A DNA stretch of 23,616 nt, from IMG/VR virus record IMGVR_UViG_3300043438_000779, positions 1-23,616 of that record; one strand, written 5' to 3'. The notes under the pieces are model-generated. The model saw only the letters and a program-made list of their open reading frames with translations, had not been told where the DNA came from and made no database searches. Of the stretch, positions 4,127-17,228 are shown piece by piece. Position 1 is the first letter of the stretch. Each line of letters begins with the position of its first letter. This DNA is from a virus. The position numbers and the translations under genes are program-made.

Positions 4127-5266
4127 ATGAAAGATAAAAAATATTTTTGTTATGAAATATATAAAAATCTTGCAATAAGGTCTTTAAATGGGCAAATTGG
4201 ATATAGTCCCTGCTCATATTATGACGGAGTTATAAAAATTACCACTGATTTTGATTTATCTAAAGCCTGGCATAGCCCAGAACATAATCAGTTAAAATTG
4301 TTAATAGAAAATGATCAACCAATACCTGGATGTCATCAATGTTATCGTGAAGAATCACACGGTCTTGCAAGTCGTTGGAAGTCATCTAAACAACTGTATG
4401 AGGATTTTCACCAAGATACAAATATAGATCTAACCAGTCCACAAAGTATTGATTACAGCGTGGGAAATTTATGCAATTTAAAATGTTTAATTTGCGGTCC
4501 AGAGAATAGTTCTTCGTGGCTGCCTGATTATCAAAAAAAATATCCTCTAACAGACATAAACAAATTCAAATACGACAAGCACAATCAAATTGAAACACTT
4601 GATCTTGCATTGTTGATGAATGTAAAAAATATACATTTTCACGGTGGTGGTGAACCATTGATGTCTAACAATCATGTAACAATGTTAAAAAGTATAAAAG
4701 AAGCAAAAGGACTCAGTGATGTTAGAGTATTTTACAATACCAATGGCACACAAACCGTATCTCAGTCAGTTCTTGATTTGTGGGAAGAATGTAAACTGGT
4801 AGAATTATATTTTAGTATTGATGATATTGGCGATCGCTTCAATTACCAACGCACAGGCGCAAATTGGAATCAAGTAATTCAAAATATCAAATGGTTTGTG
4901 AACAACATGCCACACAATCACATGTTCAACATAAATTGTGCATGGGGATATTTAAATTTATATTACCTTGACGAAATTGAAGACTGGTATCAAAATAATT
5001 TAACAAAAAATCGATACGGCGATACTGTAAATTTAATATATCAAAAAGTAATAGGTGATTTTAGTATTAATCATGTGTCTAAGCCAACTAAAGAGGTTTT
5101 GCTAAACAAGTTTAGCAATCGCCCACGATTAATAGAATTGGTTAATTCTTTAACAACAAGTGCAGAAAGTAATAGTTTTTTCTGGGAAAAAATCAACCAA
5201 ATTGATTCTATTAGAGGCAACAGTTTTAGATCTGTATGCCCTGAGTGGGCTGAGTTGTTAGATTAA
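4127..5266 (+). CDS. Radical SAM protein, twitch/SPASM-like phage type
   Basis: A 379-residue radical S-adenosylmethionine enzyme. The [4Fe-4S]-binding motif C-x3-C-x2-C is CNLKCLIC, with C116, C120 and C123. FHGGGEPLM around 175 is the SAM-contacting GGEP motif. Extra cysteines before the core (C8, C29, C69, C72 in PGCHQCYREE) and one near the C-terminus (VCPEW) are arranged like an N-terminally placed SPASM/twitch auxiliary cluster region, a layout seen in radical SAM proteins of T4-like aquatic phages. The gene is AT-rich and follows the SDR-like gene after 46 bases. Related enzymes act on peptides or sugars; the substrate here is unknown. Its stop codon TAA shares bases with the stop of the convergent tail fibre gene. 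It depends on Fe-S supply, which the iscU/iscA cassette in this window may support. Confidence 0.85.
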   Translation: MKDKKYFCYEIYKNLAIRSLNGQIGYSPCSYYDGVIKITTDFDLSKAWHSPEHNQLKLLIENDQPIPGCHQCYREESHGLASRWKSSKQLYEDFHQDTNIDLTSPQSIDYSVGNLCNLKCLICGPENSSSWLPDYQKKYPLTDINKFKYDKHNQIETLDLALLMNVKNIHFHGGGEPLMSNNHVTMLKSIKEAKGLSDVRVFYNTNGTQTVSQSVLDLWEECKLVELYFSIDDIGDRFNYQRTGANWNQVIQNIKWFVNNMPHNHMFNINCAWGYLNLYYLDEIEDWYQNNLTKNRYGDTVNLIYQKVIGDFSINHVSKPTKEVLLNKFSNRPRLIELVNSLTTSAESNSFFWEKINQIDSIRGNSFRSVCPEWAELLD

Positions 5267-6966: not shown

Positions 6967-7254
6967 ATGACGTTTCCACTAAATAATCCAAAGGCCCTTG
7001 AGCAAATGCAAAAGAAAACTAAAAGCATATTAGAAGAACTGGACAGTTTGTACATAGAACGTGATCGCAGAGCCATCATAGAAACTCGCGCCAGCAACCT
7101 AATAGAAACAGCCATTCGTTTGCTGGAACAAATCGACGCTGAATTCTCGCCAGATCAAGCAGAGAATCTTCAACGCAAACTGCTGAATGCAATACGTCAC
7201 AGAGACACCAGCAAGTTCTCACGGTCCGTAAGGAGAACCAATGCAGATCTTTGA
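6967..7254 (+). CDS. Small helical phage protein of unknown function
   Basis: A 95-residue, highly charged, largely helical protein with no signal peptide or membrane segment. Residues 5-60 have heptad-like spacing of Leu/Ile and could form a coiled coil. The C-terminal part carries an SPDQAENLQRKLLNAIRHRD segment that looks conserved in T4-like phages, as far as I can recall, without a known function. No ribosome binding site is visible before the ATG at 6967. It overlaps the next gene by 14 bases, and the ribosome binding site of that gene lies inside its last codons. It opens the plus-strand block leading to the nucleotidyltransferase/ligase-like gene. Confidence 0.65.
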   Translation: MTFPLNNPKALEQMQKKTKSILEELDSLYIERDRRAIIETRASNLIETAIRLLEQIDAEFSPDQAENLQRKLLNAIRHRDTSKFSRSVRRTNADL

Positions 7255-8092
7255 AATCACTGCTAAAAAACCCATACAAGAAGCCATCAATCCCGGTGCT
7301 GTGATTGGTGCATTAGGCGACAAATTAGATGCTTATAATTTTGCCCAAGCTGGGTTAACCAGACCGGGCGATTCGGCTAGTGCTTACGGAGATATGAGAG
7401 CCAAAGCCGCGGCAGCCGCCGATCCACTTATCGATCAAATGGCTGCAGACGAACTAGCCAACTGGAATCAGAGTCTGAGTAATGCCATGCAATCCACAGG
7501 TGCAAAATCACCAGGCGCATTACCTCCGAGAGTCAAGCAAGGACTATCAAACAGTTTTATGAATCGTGTTTATGGGTTCTTTTTAGACAATCAGTTAGGT
7601 AATGATTTTTCTCAGTTTCCTCGTTATGTAGATAACAAATCTCAATCTGAAGCCAGTATTTTATTATCTGAATTGCGAAGCAGCATTCAGTCTATTCTGA
7701 ATTATAACTCACCCCCATCTACTCCGCAAGGACAGTTCCAGCAATGGCGAAATCTTTCCAAAGCCACATACGACATGCGGTCATTGATGCAGTTTAACTC
7801 TGCTAAAAATCGTGCGCCAGCTGCCGCAAATAAAATGCCAATTATCATGTTGGATCCTGCTGGAAAATTCAAAATTGGCAGCACTAAATTAAACTACCGA
7901 AGCCCGGTGAGTACTAACGTACATTCATTGATCATGAGCATGATGCCAACTCCAGCCAGTTCAGAACCAACAATTACTATGTCTCCGTCGGGAGATGTAC
8001 TATTAGATGGACATCTATTAGATCCTCGAGACCCAGTCGAAGGCGAATTAGTAAAAATTATTACTGCAGAAATTAAAAAGTTAAACCCATGA
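7241..8092 (+). CDS. Unknown phage protein with capsid-targeting-like N-terminus
   Basis: A 283-residue protein that I do not recognise by family. The start at 7241 has a strong AGGAG at 7231-7235. The N-terminus MQIFEITAKKPIQEA resembles the capsid-targeting peptide of T4 internal proteins, and I12-Q-E14 followed by A fits the T4 prohead protease preference (Leu/Ile-x-Glu before Ala/Gly). Residues 45-75 are alanine-rich. The middle (about 100-190) is polar and helical, with aromatic residues. The C-terminal segment MSPSGDVLLDGHLLDPRDP suggests a small beta domain. It is translationally coupled (ATGA) to the next gene, which also begins with such a peptide. A role as a core or ejected internal virion protein is inferred, not shown. 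Confidence 0.6.
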   Translation: MQIFEITAKKPIQEAINPGAVIGALGDKLDAYNFAQAGLTRPGDSASAYGDMRAKAAAAADPLIDQMAADELANWNQSLSNAMQSTGAKSPGALPPRVKQGLSNSFMNRVYGFFLDNQLGNDFSQFPRYVDNKSQSEASILLSELRSSIQSILNYNSPPSTPQGQFQQWRNLSKATYDMRSLMQFNSAKNRAPAAANKMPIIMLDPAGKFKIGSTKLNYRSPVSTNVHSLIMSMMPTPASSEPTITMSPSGDVLLDGHLLDPRDPVEGELVKIITAEIKKLNP

Positions 8093-10005
8093 AAAGCCTA
8101 CGCACACTATTAGAAGGCGGCAACGTATTCAAGGATGCAGAAGGTCAGCCACTCACAGGTCGCATCAATCAAAGCGATGTGCCTGCCACAGTGGCCTGGC
8201 TTGAACAACTCACAGGCATAGAGTTTCCACGTGAGCGTTGGTTGGGCAGCACTGGTAAAGCACCTACGTCAGGAGACATGGATCTTGCTGTGGATGCCAA
8301 CCAAGTGTCAAAAGAACAATTGGCTGCCAAACTAACACAATGGATTGTGGGACACAAACTGCCGCCTGCTGAATGGATCAAAAAGGGCGGAGAAGTACAC
8401 CTGCGTACACCCATACAAGGACGTCCTGACTTGGGCTATGTGCAAACTGACTTCATGTTCTTTCCCAACTTGGACTGGGGCACATTTTACTACAACCAAG
8501 GTGCAGGATCGGCCTACAAAGGCATGAATCGTGCTGTGTTGATGTCAAGCCTGGCCAAACACTATGGACTCAAACTGGGTGCCAATGGGGTGTTCAGTAG
8601 AACCAGCAATCAACTGCTGACCATGGATCCTGACGAAGCAGCACGTATGATTCTTGGTCCAAAAGCCACAAGAGAAAACCTCAGCACAGTGGAAACCATA
8701 TTTGCTGCCTTGGCCAAGGACAAGGATCGGGAAGCCAAGATCAAAGATTTCCGTGAGTACTTGACCAAGGAAGGTCTACAACAACCTGATGCAGTGACAG
8801 AAGATGCTGACACTTATTTCCTGGCACGACTGCGTGATAGAATTGTCAACCAAGGCATGCAGCCCTTGGTAGAACGTGAAGCGGTCAATCCATATCGCAT
8901 CTACGAAGCCGATGAAGGCAATGTGGGCGGCAGAGCCAAGGGTATTGAACACCTAGAAGATCTAGTGTTTCGCAAAGGCAGCCGTGGTGCTGCAGAAGCA
9001 TTGAACATACTTGACCAGGCCGCTGCCAGTCCAGGAACCACTACCAGTGTAAAGTGGGACGGTATGCCTGCTGTGTACTTTGGTCGTAAACCTGACACTG
9101 GTGAGTTTGTGCTCACAGATGGATCTGGGTTCGAAGCCAAGGGCTATGACGGCCTGGCCACCAGTCCCCGAATGATGGCTAATATACAAAACACACGCTC
9201 AGGTGACAGATCTGGACTTATTCAAACTTATGCCACATTGTGGCCTATGTTAGAAGCATCTCTGCCCACTAACTTTCGTGGTTATGTACAAGGTGACTTG
9301 TTGTACATGAACACCCCGCCACTAGAAGCCGGCAACTATGTGTTCAAACCCAACACAGTGCAGTATCGTATTCCTGCAAAAAGTGCATTGGGTCAGCGTA
9401 TAGGCAACAGCACAGTTGGTGTTGCCATGCACACCATGTACTCGGATGCAGGTGACCCCAAGCAACCATTGCGGCGTGTAAAGTTCAATGATGTTCCGGG
9501 CCTGTTGTTGATCGAACCTATCTTTGCCAAAGAAATGATGCCAAACACAGATCTTGCAAAACAAATCAAAGCACTGGTGCGAGACAAAGGTGCTGCTGTT
9601 GACATCTTGTTCAACCCTGCTGAACTAAAAAGACAACAACTCACAGATCTAGCAAAACTGTGTGTGGACTACATCAACTTTAGAATCAAACAACCTGGGG
9701 GCAACTTTGACAACTTGTTGGCAGGGTTTGGTGATTGGCTGCAGACCAAGGTAACCCCACGTAAATTTGCCAACATTGTAGAATACCTACAAAGCCCTAC
9801 TTCAAACACAGAGGGCATGGCCGCAGCATTTACCTTGTTCTTGTTGTTGCACGACTTGAAGTTGGATGTACTGCGTCAACTGGATTTGAAAGATCCTGGA
9901 CACGAAGGTTGGGTCATGGCCACCCCTGCAGGCTACAGCAAAGCAGTAAATAGGTTTGATTTCTCTGCAAGAAATCAAGCAAGAAATAATCCGCAACAGG
10001 GCTAA
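8089..10005 (+). CDS. Pol-beta-type nucleotidyltransferase plus ligase-like protein (DUF6267-like)
   Basis: A 638-residue protein with two apparent catalytic modules. Near the N-terminus G53-S54 followed by D63-x-D65 (GSTGKAPTSGDMDLAVD), with a third acid D121 in YVQTDFMFF, matches the polymerase-beta nucleotidyltransferase signature. In the second half K322-x-D324-G325 in SVKWDGMPAVYFGR matches motif I of DNA/RNA ligases and capping enzymes, where the lysine is adenylylated. YVQGDLLYM (about 399-407) and NYVFKPN (about 416-422) could serve as motifs III and IV. The whole resembles phage proteins grouped as DUF6267. The start MKSLRTLLEGG contains L-L-E before G, a prohead-protease-type site, hinting at packaging in the capsid. 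A nucleic-acid repair or end-modifying role is inferred; no reaction is proven. Confidence 0.68.
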   Translation: MKSLRTLLEGGNVFKDAEGQPLTGRINQSDVPATVAWLEQLTGIEFPRERWLGSTGKAPTSGDMDLAVDANQVSKEQLAAKLTQWIVGHKLPPAEWIKKGGEVHLRTPIQGRPDLGYVQTDFMFFPNLDWGTFYYNQGAGSAYKGMNRAVLMSSLAKHYGLKLGANGVFSRTSNQLLTMDPDEAARMILGPKATRENLSTVETIFAALAKDKDREAKIKDFREYLTKEGLQQPDAVTEDADTYFLARLRDRIVNQGMQPLVEREAVNPYRIYEADEGNVGGRAKGIEHLEDLVFRKGSRGAAEALNILDQAAASPGTTTSVKWDGMPAVYFGRKPDTGEFVLTDGSGFEAKGYDGLATSPRMMANIQNTRSGDRSGLIQTYATLWPMLEASLPTNFRGYVQGDLLYMNTPPLEAGNYVFKPNTVQYRIPAKSALGQRIGNSTVGVAMHTMYSDAGDPKQPLRRVKFNDVPGLLLIEPIFAKEMMPNTDLAKQIKALVRDKGAAVDILFNPAELKRQQLTDLAKLCVDYINFRIKQPGGNFDNLLAGFGDWLQTKVTPRKFANIVEYLQSPTSNTEGMAAAFTLFLLLHDLKLDVLRQLDLKDPGHEGWVMATPAGYSKAVNRFDFSARNQARNNPQQG

Positions 10006-11273: not shown

Positions 11274-11722
11274 CCCGTGAACAAAAATTAGAACGCTTTG
11301 CCGAGCGTGAACTCAAGCGTGTGTACACTGAACTCATCATTGATGACGAACATGGTGGATATGTCGCATTTGGGAGGTATCATTTACGACCTGAATCAGC
11401 CGGCTTTGCAGTGTATCACAGCGACGATCTTGTGAGCACATTCAGCAGTAAAAAAACTGCCATGAGCTGGTGTGTAGCAGATCACTTGCAACAGTATCGA
11501 CTAGCACAAAACATCCGCATACTAGACAACAAAAAACAAACGCTGACAGCTGACATCCATTGCCGCCGTGGACAAGCGGATTGTAGCAACAGACCCGAAT
11601 TCCGTGAAATGGTGCGTACCAAACTTGCACCCAAAATTGAAAACCTTACCCTGCTGAATCAAGAACTTGAAAAATGTTTAAATTCGGCTAAATATCTACA
11701 ACTAAGAGGATTTGCCAAATGA
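11270..11722 (+). CDS. Conserved phage hypothetical protein
   Basis: A 150-residue soluble protein. The N-terminal helix is charged. A beta-rich middle (YVAFGRYHLRPESAGFAVY, about 51-69) is followed by a DDLVSTFSSKKTAMSWCVAD stretch and a C-terminal helical half with coiled-coil character (about 100-145). No catalytic motif or metal site is evident: the cysteines are scattered. It is linked on both sides by ATGA overlaps, so it belongs to the 11007-13016 operon. I recall similar sequences in T4-like aquatic phages but no function. Confidence 0.6.
   Translation: MTREQKLERFAERELKRVYTELIIDDEHGGYVAFGRYHLRPESAGFAVYHSDDLVSTFSSKKTAMSWCVADHLQQYRLAQNIRILDNKKQTLTADIHCRRGQADCSNRPEFREMVRTKLAPKIENLTLLNQELEKCLNSAKYLQLRGFAK
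11688..11694 (+). promoter_or_regulatory. Candidate late promoter variant (CTAAATA)
   Basis: CTAAATATC lies 31 bases before the ATG at 11719, with AGAGGA (11705-11710) as the ribosome binding site between. It is inside the end of the preceding gene. The same core and spacing occur before the tail-protein gene at 17966. Motif-based and tentative. Confidence 0.35.
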
Positions 11723-12660
11723 AATTAACCGAACTGGCCACACCAAAAAAGAGCCGCCAAGTAGCCAAAGTATTTGAAAGTTACTTCGGTACCAAGATGC
11801 CTGTGAACCGTCTCACAGTGCGTGAAGCACAGGCCATGCTGAAACGTGTGCGTGGAGTCATTGCTGAACATCAGCGTAGCCCCAGCCGTCATACCAGTGA
11901 ACGCAACCCTGCGTACTTAAAACTGGTGATGATGGAACAAGCATTGACAAGTCGTATCCGAGAAGAACAAGTTCCAATTCCGCCTACTTCATCCAGCACT
12001 AATCCCAGCACTAGTACTGCTACTACACCTCCACCATCGGGCAGTCAGAACACTGTGGATATCAAAGATCCTAAAATGGCTCAGGCATTGAAGAAAAGCG
12101 CAGCAGGACAAACTCTCACTCCAGACGAACAAAAAATGGTGGCTGGTCAGGCAATGATGGCTGCCGAAAGTCGTCTGCGTAGAGCATACCAGTTCTTGAA
12201 AGAATCAGAAGTTCAACAAGCACAAGTTGTGTTGGCTGCACAAGACATGGTTGACAAAATGCAAAGCATGTTGGAAGACACCACTGAAATGCAATTCAAA
12301 GAATTGCCTGCATTAGTTGATTCAATTCGCAATCAAATTGGCATGGAACAAGCCACACAGTTCAACACTGACGTCACTGGTGCATTGCAAGGACTTGTGC
12401 AAAACTTACAAGGTGCCAAGCAACAACTGGAGACAGCATTGGGTGTGGTCACAGGACAACCTGCCGCACTAGACACCAGCATGGCCGCCAGCGGTATGCC
12501 AGGTGCGACACCTCCACCAGTACCTGGTGCCGAAATGGGTGCCGATATAGGTGCTGATATAGGTGCTGATATAGGTGCTGATGTTGGAGCCGATATAGGT
12601 GCTGACCTTGAAACTGGTGCACCAGCACCCAAAGCAGCATTGGGCCGAGCACGTAGATAA
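11719..12660 (+). CDS. Helical phage protein with a GAD[IV] tandem repeat
   Basis: A 313-residue protein. Residues 1-80 are basic and helical (LTVREAQAMLKRVRG, RHTSERNPAYLKL). A Pro/Ser/Thr linker runs from about 92 to 112. A long helical region follows (about 115-245), rich in Gln, Met and Ala. A Pro/Gly linker leads into six tandem GADI-type tetrapeptides (about 274-297) and a basic tail. The layout would suit a scaffold, core or other assembly protein, but I cannot assign it. The ATG has AGAGGA upstream and overlaps the previous stop. Its own stop TAA overlaps the next ATG by one base. Confidence 0.6.
   Translation: MKLTELATPKKSRQVAKVFESYFGTKMPVNRLTVREAQAMLKRVRGVIAEHQRSPSRHTSERNPAYLKLVMMEQALTSRIREEQVPIPPTSSSTNPSTSTATTPPPSGSQNTVDIKDPKMAQALKKSAAGQTLTPDEQKMVAGQAMMAAESRLRRAYQFLKESEVQQAQVVLAAQDMVDKMQSMLEDTTEMQFKELPALVDSIRNQIGMEQATQFNTDVTGALQGLVQNLQGAKQQLETALGVVTGQPAALDTSMAASGMPGATPPPVPGAEMGADIGADIGADIGADVGADIGADLETGAPAPKAALGRARR
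12538..12609 (+). repeat. Six 12-base tandem repeats encoding GAD[IVL]
   Basis: Six head-to-tail copies of GGTGCTGATATA (with changes in copies 1, 4, 5 and 6) encode GADI-GADI-GADI-GADV-GADI-GADL. Copy changes of one unit stay in frame. The near-identity of copies 2 and 3 suggests recent slippage. Confidence 0.9.
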
Positions 12661-13072: not shown

Positions 13073-13444
13073 ATGGCTTATTCAGAAAAAGTAATTGATC
13101 ATTATGAAAATCCACGCAATGTGGGCAAGTTTGAAATTGACGACACTGTTGGTACAGGCATGGTAGGTGCACCTGCTTGCGGTGATGTGATGAAACTGCA
13201 AATCAAAGTTGAAAACGGAATTATAACAGATGCCAGATTCAAAACGTACGGATGCGGAAGTGCGATTGCCTCATCCTCTCTTGTTACCGAGTGGGTTAAA
13301 GGACGAACGCTTGACGAGGCCGCAGCTCTTAAAAATTCAGAGATTGCTCAAGAACTCGCATTGCCACCAGTCAAGATTCATTGTTCTATTCTTGCTGAAG
13401 ATGCTATAAAGGCTGCTGTAGAAGATTACAAGAAAAAACATTAA
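13073..13444 (+). CDS. iscU: Fe-S cluster scaffold protein IscU
   Basis: A 123-residue IscU, close to the usual 125-130 residues. IscU assembles [2Fe-2S] and [4Fe-4S] clusters from sulfur given by the cysteine desulfurase IscS, then releases them with HscA/HscB. All key residues are present: C36, D38, C61, H103 and C104. The HscA recognition motif LPPVK is intact at 97-101, so the protein should engage the host chaperones. The start MAYSEKVIDHYENPRNVG is typical of proteobacterial-type IscU. GAAGGAA lies upstream, behind a perfect sigma70 promoter. The gene leads a four-gene cassette with two radical SAM genes and iscA. No desulfurase or ferredoxin is encoded here, so host sulfur delivery is needed. 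Fe-S assembly genes have been reported in viral metagenomes as accessory metabolic genes. Confidence 0.96.
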   Translation: MAYSEKVIDHYENPRNVGKFEIDDTVGTGMVGAPACGDVMKLQIKVENGIITDARFKTYGCGSAIASSSLVTEWVKGRTLDEAAALKNSEIAQELALPPVKIHCSILAEDAIKAAVEDYKKKH

Positions 13445-13450
13445 CACAAC

Positions 13451-15175
13451 ATGTCGCGTAGCCCAAGCAGTTTTTTTTCACAAAAAAAAACTAGGATATT
13501 ATTTTATCAAACTGGAATGCAAGGTTGGATCAAAGTTAATGTTTTGGTGTTTAAAACATATATTGATACGCTGTATCCAGAACTAGCAGAAAAATTAGAA
13601 TGGTTGTTGCCTATACAAGATGCAATGACTGACGATGAGTTACTACAACATATTAAACAAAACAATGTTGATATTTTATGCACCAGTCATTATCTTTGGA
13701 ACCATGATTTTTTAATCAATCAGTTAGCTCGTATCAAGCCTAAACTGCATATTCAAGCAGTAATTGCAGGTGGTCCCAGCATTGATGTCAACAACAACAA
13801 ATATTTTTTTGATCAACACCCCTACATTGACTATGCAGTGTACGGTGCAGGCGAACAGGCATTTGCAGACATTGTCAGTCATTTGGTATTAGAAACGCCC
13901 ATGATTGCATTCAACACATCCAACTGTGCCTGGAAAAACAATCAAACTGGAAAAACAAATGTGGCCAATTACAAGTTTGTAAAGATGTTAGAGACCAGTC
14001 CTTTTGTACACAATGCAGAACTATTTGGGCGTATGGTTGCAAATGCCAAGAAAAAAAATGTGACTAACGTAGCTGAGTGGGTCCCGTACACTCTCACAAG
14101 AGGTTGCCCGTATGCATGTACATTCTGTGATTGGAACAGCGGACTTGGAAACAAAGTGTCTCGGCGCAAAAACACCTATCAACAAGAAATTGATTTGTTC
14201 CACAAATTAGGAGTTAAAAACATTTATTTGTCTGACGCCAATGTTGGACAATATGATGAAGATGTTGACATGGTCGAATACTTTGCTCAAAAAAATCTGC
14301 AAGAAAATGCAGGTTTTCGTATATCAGGAAATTATAGCAAGTTAAACAAAAAAAACAATTTGAAAATGTTTAGCATTATGGCCGAAAGTGGTCTTGTGCA
14401 AAAGACTTTGAACTTCTCCATACAGGACATCAATGAACAAGTATTAAAAAACATTGATCGTCCGGATGTGGGGTGGGAGACACATGTAGCCATGGCTGAC
14501 GAATTGCGAGGGAAATATCCTCACTTGATTGTCAAAACTCAGTTGATTTGTGGATTGCCTGGACAAACAGTTGAATCGTGGCGACAGACCATGCAACAAA
14601 TTCTTGCAAAAAATATGTTACCAATTTGGTTTGTAAATGAACCATTGCCAGCCAGTCCTGCCATGTATGATCCAGAATACCAAAAGAAATGGGAATTTGA
14701 ATACGACAAGGCTGTACGTAAAGATTTTCAACAAAATTATTATGTAGGTATAATTCCTAAAAAGTGTGTTTCATTTAGCCAACATGATCTAGTAGAAATG
14801 TTTATATTATCAGGGATATGCGAGGCAATTAGTCTAATAAATTTAACCATGATACAACATGTTGGATCGCGAATAGACACTGAATTTATAATTGATAATT
14901 TGTTGCTCAGCGAAGGATATCGTATTTTATGTGACAATCTTTATAAAAATTGGTCCAACGAACAAATTTTTTATCTCACTCAAGATTTTTCAGGAAATGT
15001 TGCAAATTATTCTTGTGAAGTTGGGTACCATGGTGTAGAGTTGATTAACCACGAGAAATTTCTTTTGCAAGTTCAAAACTTGTTACCAGATGATCAAAAA
15101 GAACAGTTATCTCATTTGGCCAGAGAAAAAATCTTATTTCATTACGTTATGAAACTATATGCTGAATTGGCTTGA
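13451..15175 (+). CDS. Radical SAM enzyme with N-terminal B12-binding-like domain (copy 1)
   Basis: A 574-residue radical SAM protein. The N-terminal about 150 residues form a Rossmann-like domain of the cobalamin-binding type (VIAGGPS near 104-110, YGAGEQAF near 131-138), but the DxHxxG motif that supplies the cobalt-ligand histidine is missing. The radical SAM core follows, with C-x3-C-x2-C in RGCPYACTFCDWNSG (C219, C223, C226). Segments such as YLSDANVGQYDEDVDM and QLICGLPGQT match later strands of the barrel. The C-terminal about 150 residues are of unknown fold. Members of this broad class do methylations, cyclisations or rearrangements; the substrate is unknown. It lies 6 bases after iscU, and its stop overlaps the start of a close paralogue. 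Confidence 0.88.
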   Translation: MSRSPSSFFSQKKTRILFYQTGMQGWIKVNVLVFKTYIDTLYPELAEKLEWLLPIQDAMTDDELLQHIKQNNVDILCTSHYLWNHDFLINQLARIKPKLHIQAVIAGGPSIDVNNNKYFFDQHPYIDYAVYGAGEQAFADIVSHLVLETPMIAFNTSNCAWKNNQTGKTNVANYKFVKMLETSPFVHNAELFGRMVANAKKKNVTNVAEWVPYTLTRGCPYACTFCDWNSGLGNKVSRRKNTYQQEIDLFHKLGVKNIYLSDANVGQYDEDVDMVEYFAQKNLQENAGFRISGNYSKLNKKNNLKMFSIMAESGLVQKTLNFSIQDINEQVLKNIDRPDVGWETHVAMADELRGKYPHLIVKTQLICGLPGQTVESWRQTMQQILAKNMLPIWFVNEPLPASPAMYDPEYQKKWEFEYDKAVRKDFQQNYYVGIIPKKCVSFSQHDLVEMFILSGICEAISLINLTMIQHVGSRIDTEFIIDNLLLSEGYRILCDNLYKNWSNEQIFYLTQDFSGNVANYSCEVGYHGVELINHEKFLLQVQNLLPDDQKEQLSHLAREKILFHYVMKLYAELA

Positions 15176-16893
15176 TGAATACCACTATGATATCTGTAAA
15201 TAATAAAAAGTTAAAAATATTGCTGTATCACGCTGGTGGAACAAAGTCTTGGTTATATCCGGCTGTGTTGCATCTAAAAACCTATGTTGATATAACATAT
15301 CCAGAAATTGCCAAGCAACTAGAATGGCTAGTGCCTGTTCAACAAACAATGACCAATGATGAATTGTTGATATACATTGATCAATATCAACCAAACGTTC
15401 TTTGCACCAGTCATTATATCTGGAATCACGAATACTTGATAAATCAACTGGTTCAAATTAGATCACAGTTGCCTGCCCATGTCAAAGTCATTGCAGGTGG
15501 TCCCAGCATCAATGTCAATCTTGACCCTGACTTTTTTATCAAGCACCCTTACATTGACTATGCAGTGTACGGTGCAGGAGAACAGGCATTTGCAGACATT
15601 ATTAAAAGTCTAGTTACTGAAACTCCACTGATTGCATTCAACACATCCAACTGTGGCTGGGTAAATCACCATACTGATTTGCCTATTGTAGCAGATTATA
15701 AATTTGTAAAAATGATCAGTACCAGTCCTTTTACACACAATCGAGAATTGTTTGCTGAGATGACCCGCACAATTTTAGACCGTAACGGAACACTGTATTT
15801 GCCATACACATTGACCAGGGGATGTCCGTATTCTTGTACATTTTGTGATTGGAACAGCGGATTAGGAAACAAGATATCTCGACGCAAGAATACCTACCGG
15901 GAAGAAATTGATCTATTTTATGAACTGGGAATCAGACAAATTTATCTGTCAGATGCCAATGTTGGACAGTATGACGAAGATGTTGACATGATTGAATACT
16001 TTGCACAAAAAAATCTGCAACACAATGCTGGATTTAAAATCAGTGGCAACTACAGCAAACTACGCAAAGACGTCAACTTGAAAATTTTCAACATCATGGC
16101 CGAAAGTGGTCTAGTGCAAAAGACGCTGAACTTTTCTATACAAGACACCAATGAGGAAATATTGAAAAACATTGATCGGCCCGATGTGGGCTGGGAAACT
16201 CATGCAGCCATGGCAGATGAACTGACCACACGACATCCGCAGTTGATTGTGAAAGCACAATTAATTTATGGATTACCTGGACAAACGCCGTTGACCTGGC
16301 GGGAAACTCTGCGACAAATAACTCAAAAAAATATACTACCCATTGTATTTTTAAATGAACCATTGCCAGCCAGTCCTGCGGTGTATGATCCTGAGTATCA
16401 ACGCAAATTTCAATTTGAATACGTAAAATCCACAAGGATTAATCCAAATTTTGATTTTTATGTAAGCGAAATTCCCAAAAAATGTATTTCGTTTGATCAG
16501 CAAGATTTGGCAAAAATGACAGTGTTGTCTGGGTTCTATAATGCTCTAAGTGTGATAAAATTTATTACGATACGACACACTGGAATGCACATAGACATTG
16601 AACCAATTATTGATAATTTGTTAAACAGCAGCGGATACAGTATACTATGCAACAACCTCTATACCAACTGGATCAACGAACAAAAATTTTATTTTACTCA
16701 GGATTTTTTAGGAAACCCTATACTAAAATCTTGTGAGCCTATGTCATTTGGTGGGTCGTTAACAGTTGATGACCGTTTTATTTTACAGGTGTTAAAGGTA
16801 TTGCCTAGAGACGTATCAAAAAAACTTTTTCAATTGACTGTAAAAAGCGACTTCAAACAAATTGCCAACGAGCTATGCAACGAGATTGACTAG
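15175..16893 (+). CDS. Radical SAM enzyme with N-terminal B12-binding-like domain (copy 2)
   Basis: A 572-residue paralogue of the preceding gene, starting at the ATG that shares an A with the upstream stop (TGATG). The radical SAM cysteines are C217, C221 and C224 in RGCPYSCTFCDWNSG. The N-terminal Rossmann-like region again has GGPS and YGAGEQAF but no DxHxxG. The core is very similar to copy 1 (for example ISRRKNTYREEIDLFYELGI and NIDRPDVGWETH), while the N-terminal edge, the segment before the cysteines and the last 150 residues differ more. This pattern fits duplication followed by specialisation, for example to two substrates, or to form a heterodimer. iscA follows after 11 bases, so both enzymes are framed by Fe-S assembly genes. 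Confidence 0.88.
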   Translation: MNTTMISVNNKKLKILLYHAGGTKSWLYPAVLHLKTYVDITYPEIAKQLEWLVPVQQTMTNDELLIYIDQYQPNVLCTSHYIWNHEYLINQLVQIRSQLPAHVKVIAGGPSINVNLDPDFFIKHPYIDYAVYGAGEQAFADIIKSLVTETPLIAFNTSNCGWVNHHTDLPIVADYKFVKMISTSPFTHNRELFAEMTRTILDRNGTLYLPYTLTRGCPYSCTFCDWNSGLGNKISRRKNTYREEIDLFYELGIRQIYLSDANVGQYDEDVDMIEYFAQKNLQHNAGFKISGNYSKLRKDVNLKIFNIMAESGLVQKTLNFSIQDTNEEILKNIDRPDVGWETHAAMADELTTRHPQLIVKAQLIYGLPGQTPLTWRETLRQITQKNILPIVFLNEPLPASPAVYDPEYQRKFQFEYVKSTRINPNFDFYVSEIPKKCISFDQQDLAKMTVLSGFYNALSVIKFITIRHTGMHIDIEPIIDNLLNSSGYSILCNNLYTNWINEQKFYFTQDFLGNPILKSCEPMSFGGSLTVDDRFILQVLKVLPRDVSKKLFQLTVKSDFKQIANELCNEID

Positions 16894-16904
16894 TAAATAC
16901 TATT

Positions 16905-17228
16905 ATGATAACCATAACTGATCAAGCACGAAACAAAATCCAAAAATTGGTTCAAACCAAGGGCTATGCTGGCATACGTCTGGGGGTTAAAACTACCGGT
17001 TGCTCAGGGCTTGCTTATGTGTTAGAATATGTTAAAGAATACGAACCTGACGCTGGCAACATAAATTATGCTCAAAATGATTTCTGTGTGTTAGTTGACA
17101 AAAAACATGATGTATACCTGCGTGGCACACAAGTAGACTATGTACGCCAAGGCCTCAATGAAGGCTTTGAATTTACCAATCCCAATGAACGTGACCGCTG
17201 CGGTTGCGGAGAAAGTTTTAGAGTTTAA
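16905..17228 (+). CDS. iscA: A-type Fe-S cluster carrier IscA/ErpA
   Basis: A 107-residue A-type carrier, the same length as E. coli IscA. The three conserved cysteines are present: C33 in TTGCSGLAYVL and C99/C101 in RCGCGESF. A-type carriers receive clusters from IscU and pass them on, in particular as [4Fe-4S] clusters, to apo-enzymes that include radical SAM proteins. The gene follows the second radical SAM gene by 11 bases and ends the cassette opened by iscU. No Shine-Dalgarno sequence is visible. GTAAATA at 16893-16899 lies just before the start but is too close for a normal promoter, so expression probably comes from upstream. IscA, SufA and ErpA cannot be told apart with certainty from sequence alone. 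Confidence 0.95.
   Translation: MITITDQARNKIQKLVQTKGYAGIRLGVKTTGCSGLAYVLEYVKEYEPDAGNINYAQNDFCVLVDKKHDVYLRGTQVDYVRQGLNEGFEFTNPNERDRCGCGESFRV

Follow-up and report, generated by a model that had tools for sequence, protein, structure and literature searches.

The window analysed here, a complete IMG/VR virus record (IMGVR_UViG_3300043438_000779) of 23,616 bases that constitutes a 23.6-kb fragment of a phage genome, carries on its plus strand an open reading frame (ORF; positions 8089 to 10005, 638 amino acids) in which the signatures of two different nucleotidyl-transfer chemistries occur together, raising the question of what a phage would do with both in one polypeptide. A first-pass annotation had placed a polymerase-beta-type motif set (G53-S54, D63-x-D65 and D121) and a ligase-type motif (K322-W-D-G325) in this ORF. 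Both sets are present in the one open frame at those residues, and the ORF was found to join a domain resembling family-X DNA polymerases (Pol-X-like) to a DUF6267 ligase-like domain. The parts of this ORF and the two genes upstream of it described below lie on the plus strand.

Domain composition of the fusion protein

The four named motifs were retained in all 19 sequences of an alignment (the first sequence and 18 homologues sharing 76-90% identity with it), and their residues were also invariant in 13 sequences of the N-terminal half, which include proteins of the phages Phosso, Atu_ph07 and PAC2 (28-31% identical), and in 62 sequences of the C-terminal half (down to ~24% identity); such invariance across diverse homologues argues against a chance match. 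Near-full-length fused homologues numbered 197, and the family is a large one, a pattern scan of IMG/VR having retrieved at least 589 relatives. The fusion protein matched no model in NCBIfam or PADLOC, and a sequence-only search of the PDB with the whole protein and with each half returned nothing useful. AlphaFold2 modelling, based on a 47-sequence alignment, yielded two well-predicted domains (residues 10-230 and 286-633), a disordered, presumably flexible linker of low pLDDT between them (residues 235-284, positions 8791 to 8940) and disorder over residues 1-9. The expectation that one polypeptide would combine two distinct nucleotidyl-transfer folds was supported, in that structure prediction and fold searches showed neither to be missing, the ligase match being the weaker.

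The N-terminal domain (residues 10-230, positions 8116 to 8778; high pLDDT) comprises a palm and a thumb. Its segment GSTGKAPTSGDMD (residues 53-65, positions 8245 to 8283) would form the triphosphate loop and supply the first two catalytic aspartates, D63 and D65, with D121 (positions 8449 to 8451) as the third; in the 13-sequence alignment G53, S54, G56, G62, D63, D65, D69, Q119, D121, K144, G145 and R148 were all invariant. When the model was compared with the PDB using Foldseek, the best 50 of 323 matches were all family X (Pol lambda, beta, mu, TdT and bacterial PolX), the best with an E-value of 2.4e-4 and a probability of 1.00; as the PDB holds many Pol X structures and these were the best 50 of 323, the ranking carries more weight than the count. 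Among predicted viral proteins the matches included family-X DNA polymerases of giant viruses, an Atu_ph07 nucleotidyltransferase (NTase) and the RNA ligase encoded next to it. Profile comparison by hhalign with proteins drawn from bacterial genomes gave an E-value of 5.5e-5 (probability 66%) for 17 PolX proteins and of 0.22 for 14 RlaP proteins, and the PolX alignment was collinear through GSxRRxKETxGDhD, the third aspartate, QYFTGS and GLKLNEYGLF. The polymerase-beta-type label can be refined to family-X DNA polymerases as the closest relatives.

The resemblance is to a reduced form of the family. Only ~40 residues precede the GS motif, leaving no 8-kDa lyase domain, and the fingers domain is also missing, as both are from Pol X of African swine fever virus (ASFV). 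No Pol X Pfam model, palm or thumb, matched the N-terminal half at E<=10, and the PROSITE family-X signature PS00522, in the form used here, is absent. With family-X polymerases (Pol beta, lambda, mu, TdT, bacterial PolX and ASFV Pol X) the domain has in common the palm and thumb, the GS..GDhD motif with its third aspartate and a YFTGS/LNEYG-like thumb stretch, whereas it lacks the lyase, fingers and PHP domains and has a ligase-like domain attached. The missing domains and signature indicate a minimal, diverged Pol X relative rather than a standard member; that the fold itself is Pol-X-like we regard as very likely. Membership of RlaP was considered and rejected on the absence of a PF10127 match, the presence of GDhD instead of the SDYD of GSR.WGF..DSDYD, and the hhalign result; nor did PF10127 match anything in three related contigs, G001-G003. 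Among genome contigs, the search for cellular relatives of the N-terminal half produced a single match, to a phage-like contig binned in a Planctomycetota metagenome-assembled genome (MAG), and a related-locus search with the Phosso NTase found none.

The C-terminal domain (residues 286-633, positions 8944 to 9987) was matched by Pfam PF19782 (DUF6267) over residues 286-629 only (E-value 3.5e-31; 109.3 bits against a cut-off of 27), so that the N-terminal half lies outside DUF6267 and the earlier guess of a DUF6267-like protein holds for the C-terminal half. Motif I, KWDG (positions 9052 to 9063), contains the predicted nucleotide-accepting lysine K322 and was the one ligase-type motif recognised initially. 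Further motifs follow in the order of the ligase superfamily (KWDG, GDL, EG, K): a candidate motif III, G-D-L-L-Y (residues 402-406, positions 9292 to 9306; G402, D403 and L404 invariant), a candidate motif IV, EGWV (residues 606-609, positions 9904 to 9915; E606, G607 and V609 invariant in one alignment, G607 in the 62-sequence set), and a candidate motif V, KAVNRFDF (residues 618-625, positions 9940 to 9963; K618, V620, R622 and F625 invariant), E606-G607 and K618 being additions to the first-pass annotation. Between motifs III and IV lies PNTVQY (residues 421-426, positions 9349 to 9366; P421, N422 and Y426 invariant), which is also found in the split-gene ligases described below and forms part of a composite motif. 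Modelled alone, the domain attained a pLDDT of 87.6 and a pTM of 0.80. Its top fold matches were nearly all nucleic-acid ligases, including LIG3 (probability 0.98), Thermococcus ligases, LIG1, T4 Rnl1 and AsfvLIG, but were weak (E-value 1.7e-3 at best, TM ~0.2), which leaves the ligase half less secure than the Pol X half.

A regular expression for the composite motif recovered 192 of 283 DUF6267-family ORFs and all three split-gene ligases, but no other phage ORF among the 889 examined and none of 17 DNA-ligase or 12 RNA-ligase sequences; having been written after inspection of these proteins, it demonstrates specificity and is not an independent test. DUF6267 shares the order KxDG, EGxV, K with ATP-dependent DNA ligases (PF01068) and RNA ligases (PF09414), from which it differs in having neither a ligase Pfam or profile match nor a C-terminal OB domain, and in a helical insert of ~150 residues between PNTVQY and EGWV. 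The domain occurs in no fewer than 464 publicly available phage records, mostly of marine cyanophages, and no mention of it was found in the literature searched. In contrast to the fusion protein, the usual DUF6267 protein of cyanophages and pelagiphages (PF19782/PHROG 455) stands alone, with a Pol X motif nearby in none of 160 such loci. We consider it likely that the C-terminal half is a ligase-type covalent NTase.

Split-gene relatives and gene neighbourhood

The strongest evidence that the two halves act together comes from phages in which they are encoded separately at a common locus with common partners. In Phosso the ligase gene gp446 overlaps the NTase gene gp447, in Atu_ph07 gp066 overlaps gp065 in the same manner, and in PAC2 the two genes are close, a few genes apart. 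All three split-gene ligases share the motif order of DUF6267 (KxDG, PN[TSV][IV]xY, EGxV, K.[VF]D..F). In Phosso and Atu_ph07 the pair lies downstream of a primase and a DnaB helicase, with a small PHROG-11854 virion protein shortly before it, and in the window the primase and helicase are followed by unrelated insertions and then by the PHROG-11854 protein, a 283-amino-acid gene and the fusion. The locus and partners are therefore held in common, although the gene order of the split pair is reversed relative to the domains of the fusion. The primase and DnaB helicase are likewise near the gene in G003, a 331-kb contig homologous to and syntenic with the window.

The PHROG 11854 'virion structural protein' of the window (positions 6967 to 7254) has 95 amino acids, and in Atu_ph07 and Phosso its counterparts sit next to the separate genes for ligase and NTase. 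The 283-amino-acid gene (positions 7241 to 8092), without a Pfam or PHROG match, was adjacent to the fusion in 58 of 58 loci where it was found; in the window the ATG of the fusion overlaps its stop codon (ATGA, 8089-8092), and this overlap recurred in 58 of 58 homologous loci with the upstream neighbour. Its product opens with the leader-like MQIFEITAKKPIQE/A, ending IQE/A (here and below a slash marks the putative cleavage position), and its homologues have the same style of leader-like start. A separate suggestion, that the neighbours of DUF6267 share a PD-(D/E)XK nuclease, was abandoned: the motifs resembled one another on visual inspection, but hhalign detected no relationship.

The N-terminal leader and predicted packaging

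The first nine residues of the fusion protein (MKSLRTLLE, positions 8089 to 8115), disordered in the model, look like a removable capsid-packaging tag, that is, a predicted prohead-protease propeptide with cleavage at LLE/GG. Across the 197 fused homologues there were 41 distinct leaders of 5-9 residues, located directly before GGNVF, and in each of the 41 P1 was E and P3 was L, I or V (L in 39), with eight different residues seen at P2. DUF6267 proteins of the HTVC008M type have leaders of their own, 20 of 20 distinct forms ending in L/I/V-x-E before KNTHLEH. The two families together provide 61 of 61 distinct leaders with P1=E and P3=L/I/V, a constancy that, with P2 and length varied, would be difficult to account for unless a protease cut there. 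The pattern resembles the site of the T4 prohead protease gp21, which cuts after L/I-x-E and whose known propeptides range from 7 to 65 residues (PMC9026906). As to the protease, gp21 and gp23 are encoded by G003, which supplies this evidence in place of the window fragment. It therefore appears fairly likely, judging from these sequence patterns, that the leader is cleaved and the protein packaged.

Virion contents of other phages offer parallels. S-CREM2 virions hold a SAM hydrolase, a Cas9-like nuclease, an APH-like kinase and a cytidylyltransferase (PMC10665884), and three of these four non-structural enzymes have MxxFxxFLxE starts; a cytidylyltransferase was also detected in the S-SZBM1 virion (PMC9146016), with the start MRFRQFIIE/A. 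The internal head proteins of T4 and its Alt protein likewise carry a short N-terminal peptide ending (L/I)-x-E, although the former are small and basic and Alt is an ADP-ribosyltransferase, unlike the fusion enzyme, and the passages of PMC9026906 consulted name no repair enzyme of this kind.

Several other proteins with such starts or related activities were observed. On the phage-like contig of the Planctomycetota MAG (L395), a standalone Pol-X-like NTase (positions 818-1675; 29% identity) has a leader ending KLTE/GG, and the genes after it start ...KLDE/A and ...PIKE/G. HTVC008M gp127-gp130 (L084, 5962-10155) encode DUF6267, two genes further on a Zeta-toxin/AAA_33 P-loop kinase (start MIPFILKE/G) and then a cytidylyltransferase, possibly a packaged set of end-repair or nucleotide enzymes. 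In S-CREM2, gp156 (L396, 5513-6226), annotated as hypothetical and detected in virions by mass spectrometry, is an NTP_transf_2 nucleotidyltransferase (E-value 3.4e-4).

Proposed role and alternative explanations

We propose that the fusion protein repairs nucleic-acid ends with its two domains and travels in the phage head. As the head is assembled, the short leader would take the enzyme into the prohead core, a gp21-type protease would remove the leader, and the enzyme would be injected together with the genome. The minimal Pol-X-like domain, with D63, D65 and D121, would add one or a few nucleotides at a 3' end or gap, and the DUF6267 domain would take AMP on K322 and seal the remaining nick, most likely on incoming phage DNA. 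DNA seems a somewhat better candidate than RNA for the substrate, given the Pol X kinship, the DNA ligases leading the fold matches and the replication-gene setting. The whole fill-and-seal, capsid-packaged and injected mechanism is advanced tentatively, its probability falling a little short of even, and its more specific form, in which this one polypeptide is packaged as a cleavable precursor, injected and repairs the incoming genome before phage gene expression, is possible but more doubtful; if correct, it would turn DUF6267 into a family of ligase-like enzymes. A role as the missing replicative ligase of the phage was rejected: a canonical ATP-dependent DNA ligase (PF01068) is encoded in all three large contigs tested, in which no NAD+ ligase was found, and the fusion would accordingly be a specialised second enzyme. 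This separate ligase, the split-gene versions and the prohead-protease-type leader all go beyond the first-pass annotation.

A number of observations weigh against the proposed mechanism. The C-terminal half matches neither PF01068 nor any other ligase profile, no OB domain or motif VI follows motif V (the protein ends 13 residues past 618-625), and the fold matches are of the low TM and modest E-value given above. When DUF6267 was compared by hhalign with genome-derived alignments of ATP DNA ligases and of RNA ligases, no signal emerged, a weak negative, as those alignments were small, picked by a motif regular expression and included at least one wrong member (L452). As regards the substrate, the split ligase of Atu_ph07 is named an RNA ligase in BFVD. 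As regards packaging, the leaderless DUF6267 protein of S-SZBM1, a neighbour of the cytidylyltransferase, is not listed in the virion (PMC9146016), and none was seen in S-CREM2 virions within the cytidylyltransferase region examined. The loose leader pattern was not clearly enriched among S-CREM2 virion proteins (6/52 versus 5/79); a tighter pattern resembling a capsid-targeting sequence was (5/26 versus 1/79, p=0.003), but had been written after seeing the data, so that packaging stays inferential.

The BFVD name would suit an enzyme of RNA repair, restoring nucleotides lost when defence nucleases cut host or phage tRNAs and resealing them in the manner proposed for the RlaP and RNA ligase pairs of jumbo phages. 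The pairing of RlaP NTases with RNA ligases is an established prediction (PMC7824862), and these RlaP and Rnl pairs of phages and bacteria resemble the fusion in that a Polbeta-superfamily NTase works with a covalent ligase; Phosso gp446 has a weak RNA_ligase match (E-value 0.085), and in HTVC008M the Zeta-toxin/AAA_33 kinase lies two genes downstream of DUF6267. However, the fusion is a single polypeptide, its DUF6267 half is not Rnl1 or Rnl2 by Pfam, its N-terminal half departs from RlaP in motif, profile and hhalign score as set out above, and DNA ligases ranked above RNA ligases among the fold matches, so that RNA repair appears unlikely.

Slightly less probable again is an ordinary DNA repair enzyme that acts unpackaged within the cell after infection, its leader being simply a variable N-terminus. 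The nearby primase and helicase genes would suit this, as would the failure to find virion detection of any DUF6267 protein and the existence of leaderless forms, namely the split NTases of Phosso, which starts exactly at the domain (MGGAAFKD), and Atu_ph07, and the S-SZBM1-type DUF6267 proteins, 80 of 80 copies of which start M-[AS]-KNTHLEH. Against it stand the uniform P1 and P3 of the 61 leaders despite their varying P2 and length, and the KLTE/GG start of the distant L395 NTase. Improbable, finally, is an end-modifying or nucleotidylating enzyme in which either domain would place NMP on a nucleic-acid end, a small molecule or a protein without any joining. In its favour, modifiers of proteins and small molecules are found among enzymes of the Polbeta and ligase folds, and the secondary structure of the DUF6267 model shows no OB domain of the type that DNA ligases and capping enzymes possess. 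Against it, both the family-X kinship of the N-terminal half and the presence in three giant phages of a Pol-X-like NTase paired with a separate ligase-like gene point to nucleic-acid joining.

The proposed fill-and-seal enzyme recalls bacterial LigD of non-homologous end joining, which also has a polymerase and a ligase in one chain; the polymerase of LigD has the primase (AEP) fold rather than a Pol-X-like one, and the fusion has no Ku or nuclease domain. A naturally occurring fusion of a minimal Pol X to a ligase would also be a useful enzyme, analogous to the ASFV pair of Pol X and ligase, and the fused form together with its split-gene relatives gives DUF6267 a role that can be tested, as the sealing half of a fill-and-seal enzyme. 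Should the leader function as predicted, the phages would bring their repair enzyme into the cell ready-made, an advantage when DNA is nicked or broken ahead of phage gene expression.

Elsewhere in the window, two B12-binding radical SAM proteins that are clear paralogues in tandem (13451-15175 and 15172-16893) are flanked by IscU (13073-13444, NifU_N) and an Fe-S carrier of the IscA/HesB type (16905-17228), apparently forming a phage cassette for Fe-S and radical SAM functions. A third radical SAM protein (4127-5266) is inserted between the helicase and tail-fibre-like genes and was not seen there in G003. The tRNA-Tyr called by ARAGORN at 887-985 falls inside an ORF (74-1153) and is probably spurious. 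Lastly, a tandem repeat at 12526-12605, with a 12-base unit encoding GADI, is located near the C-terminus of the ORF at 11719-12660 (PHROG 14154 virion protein).
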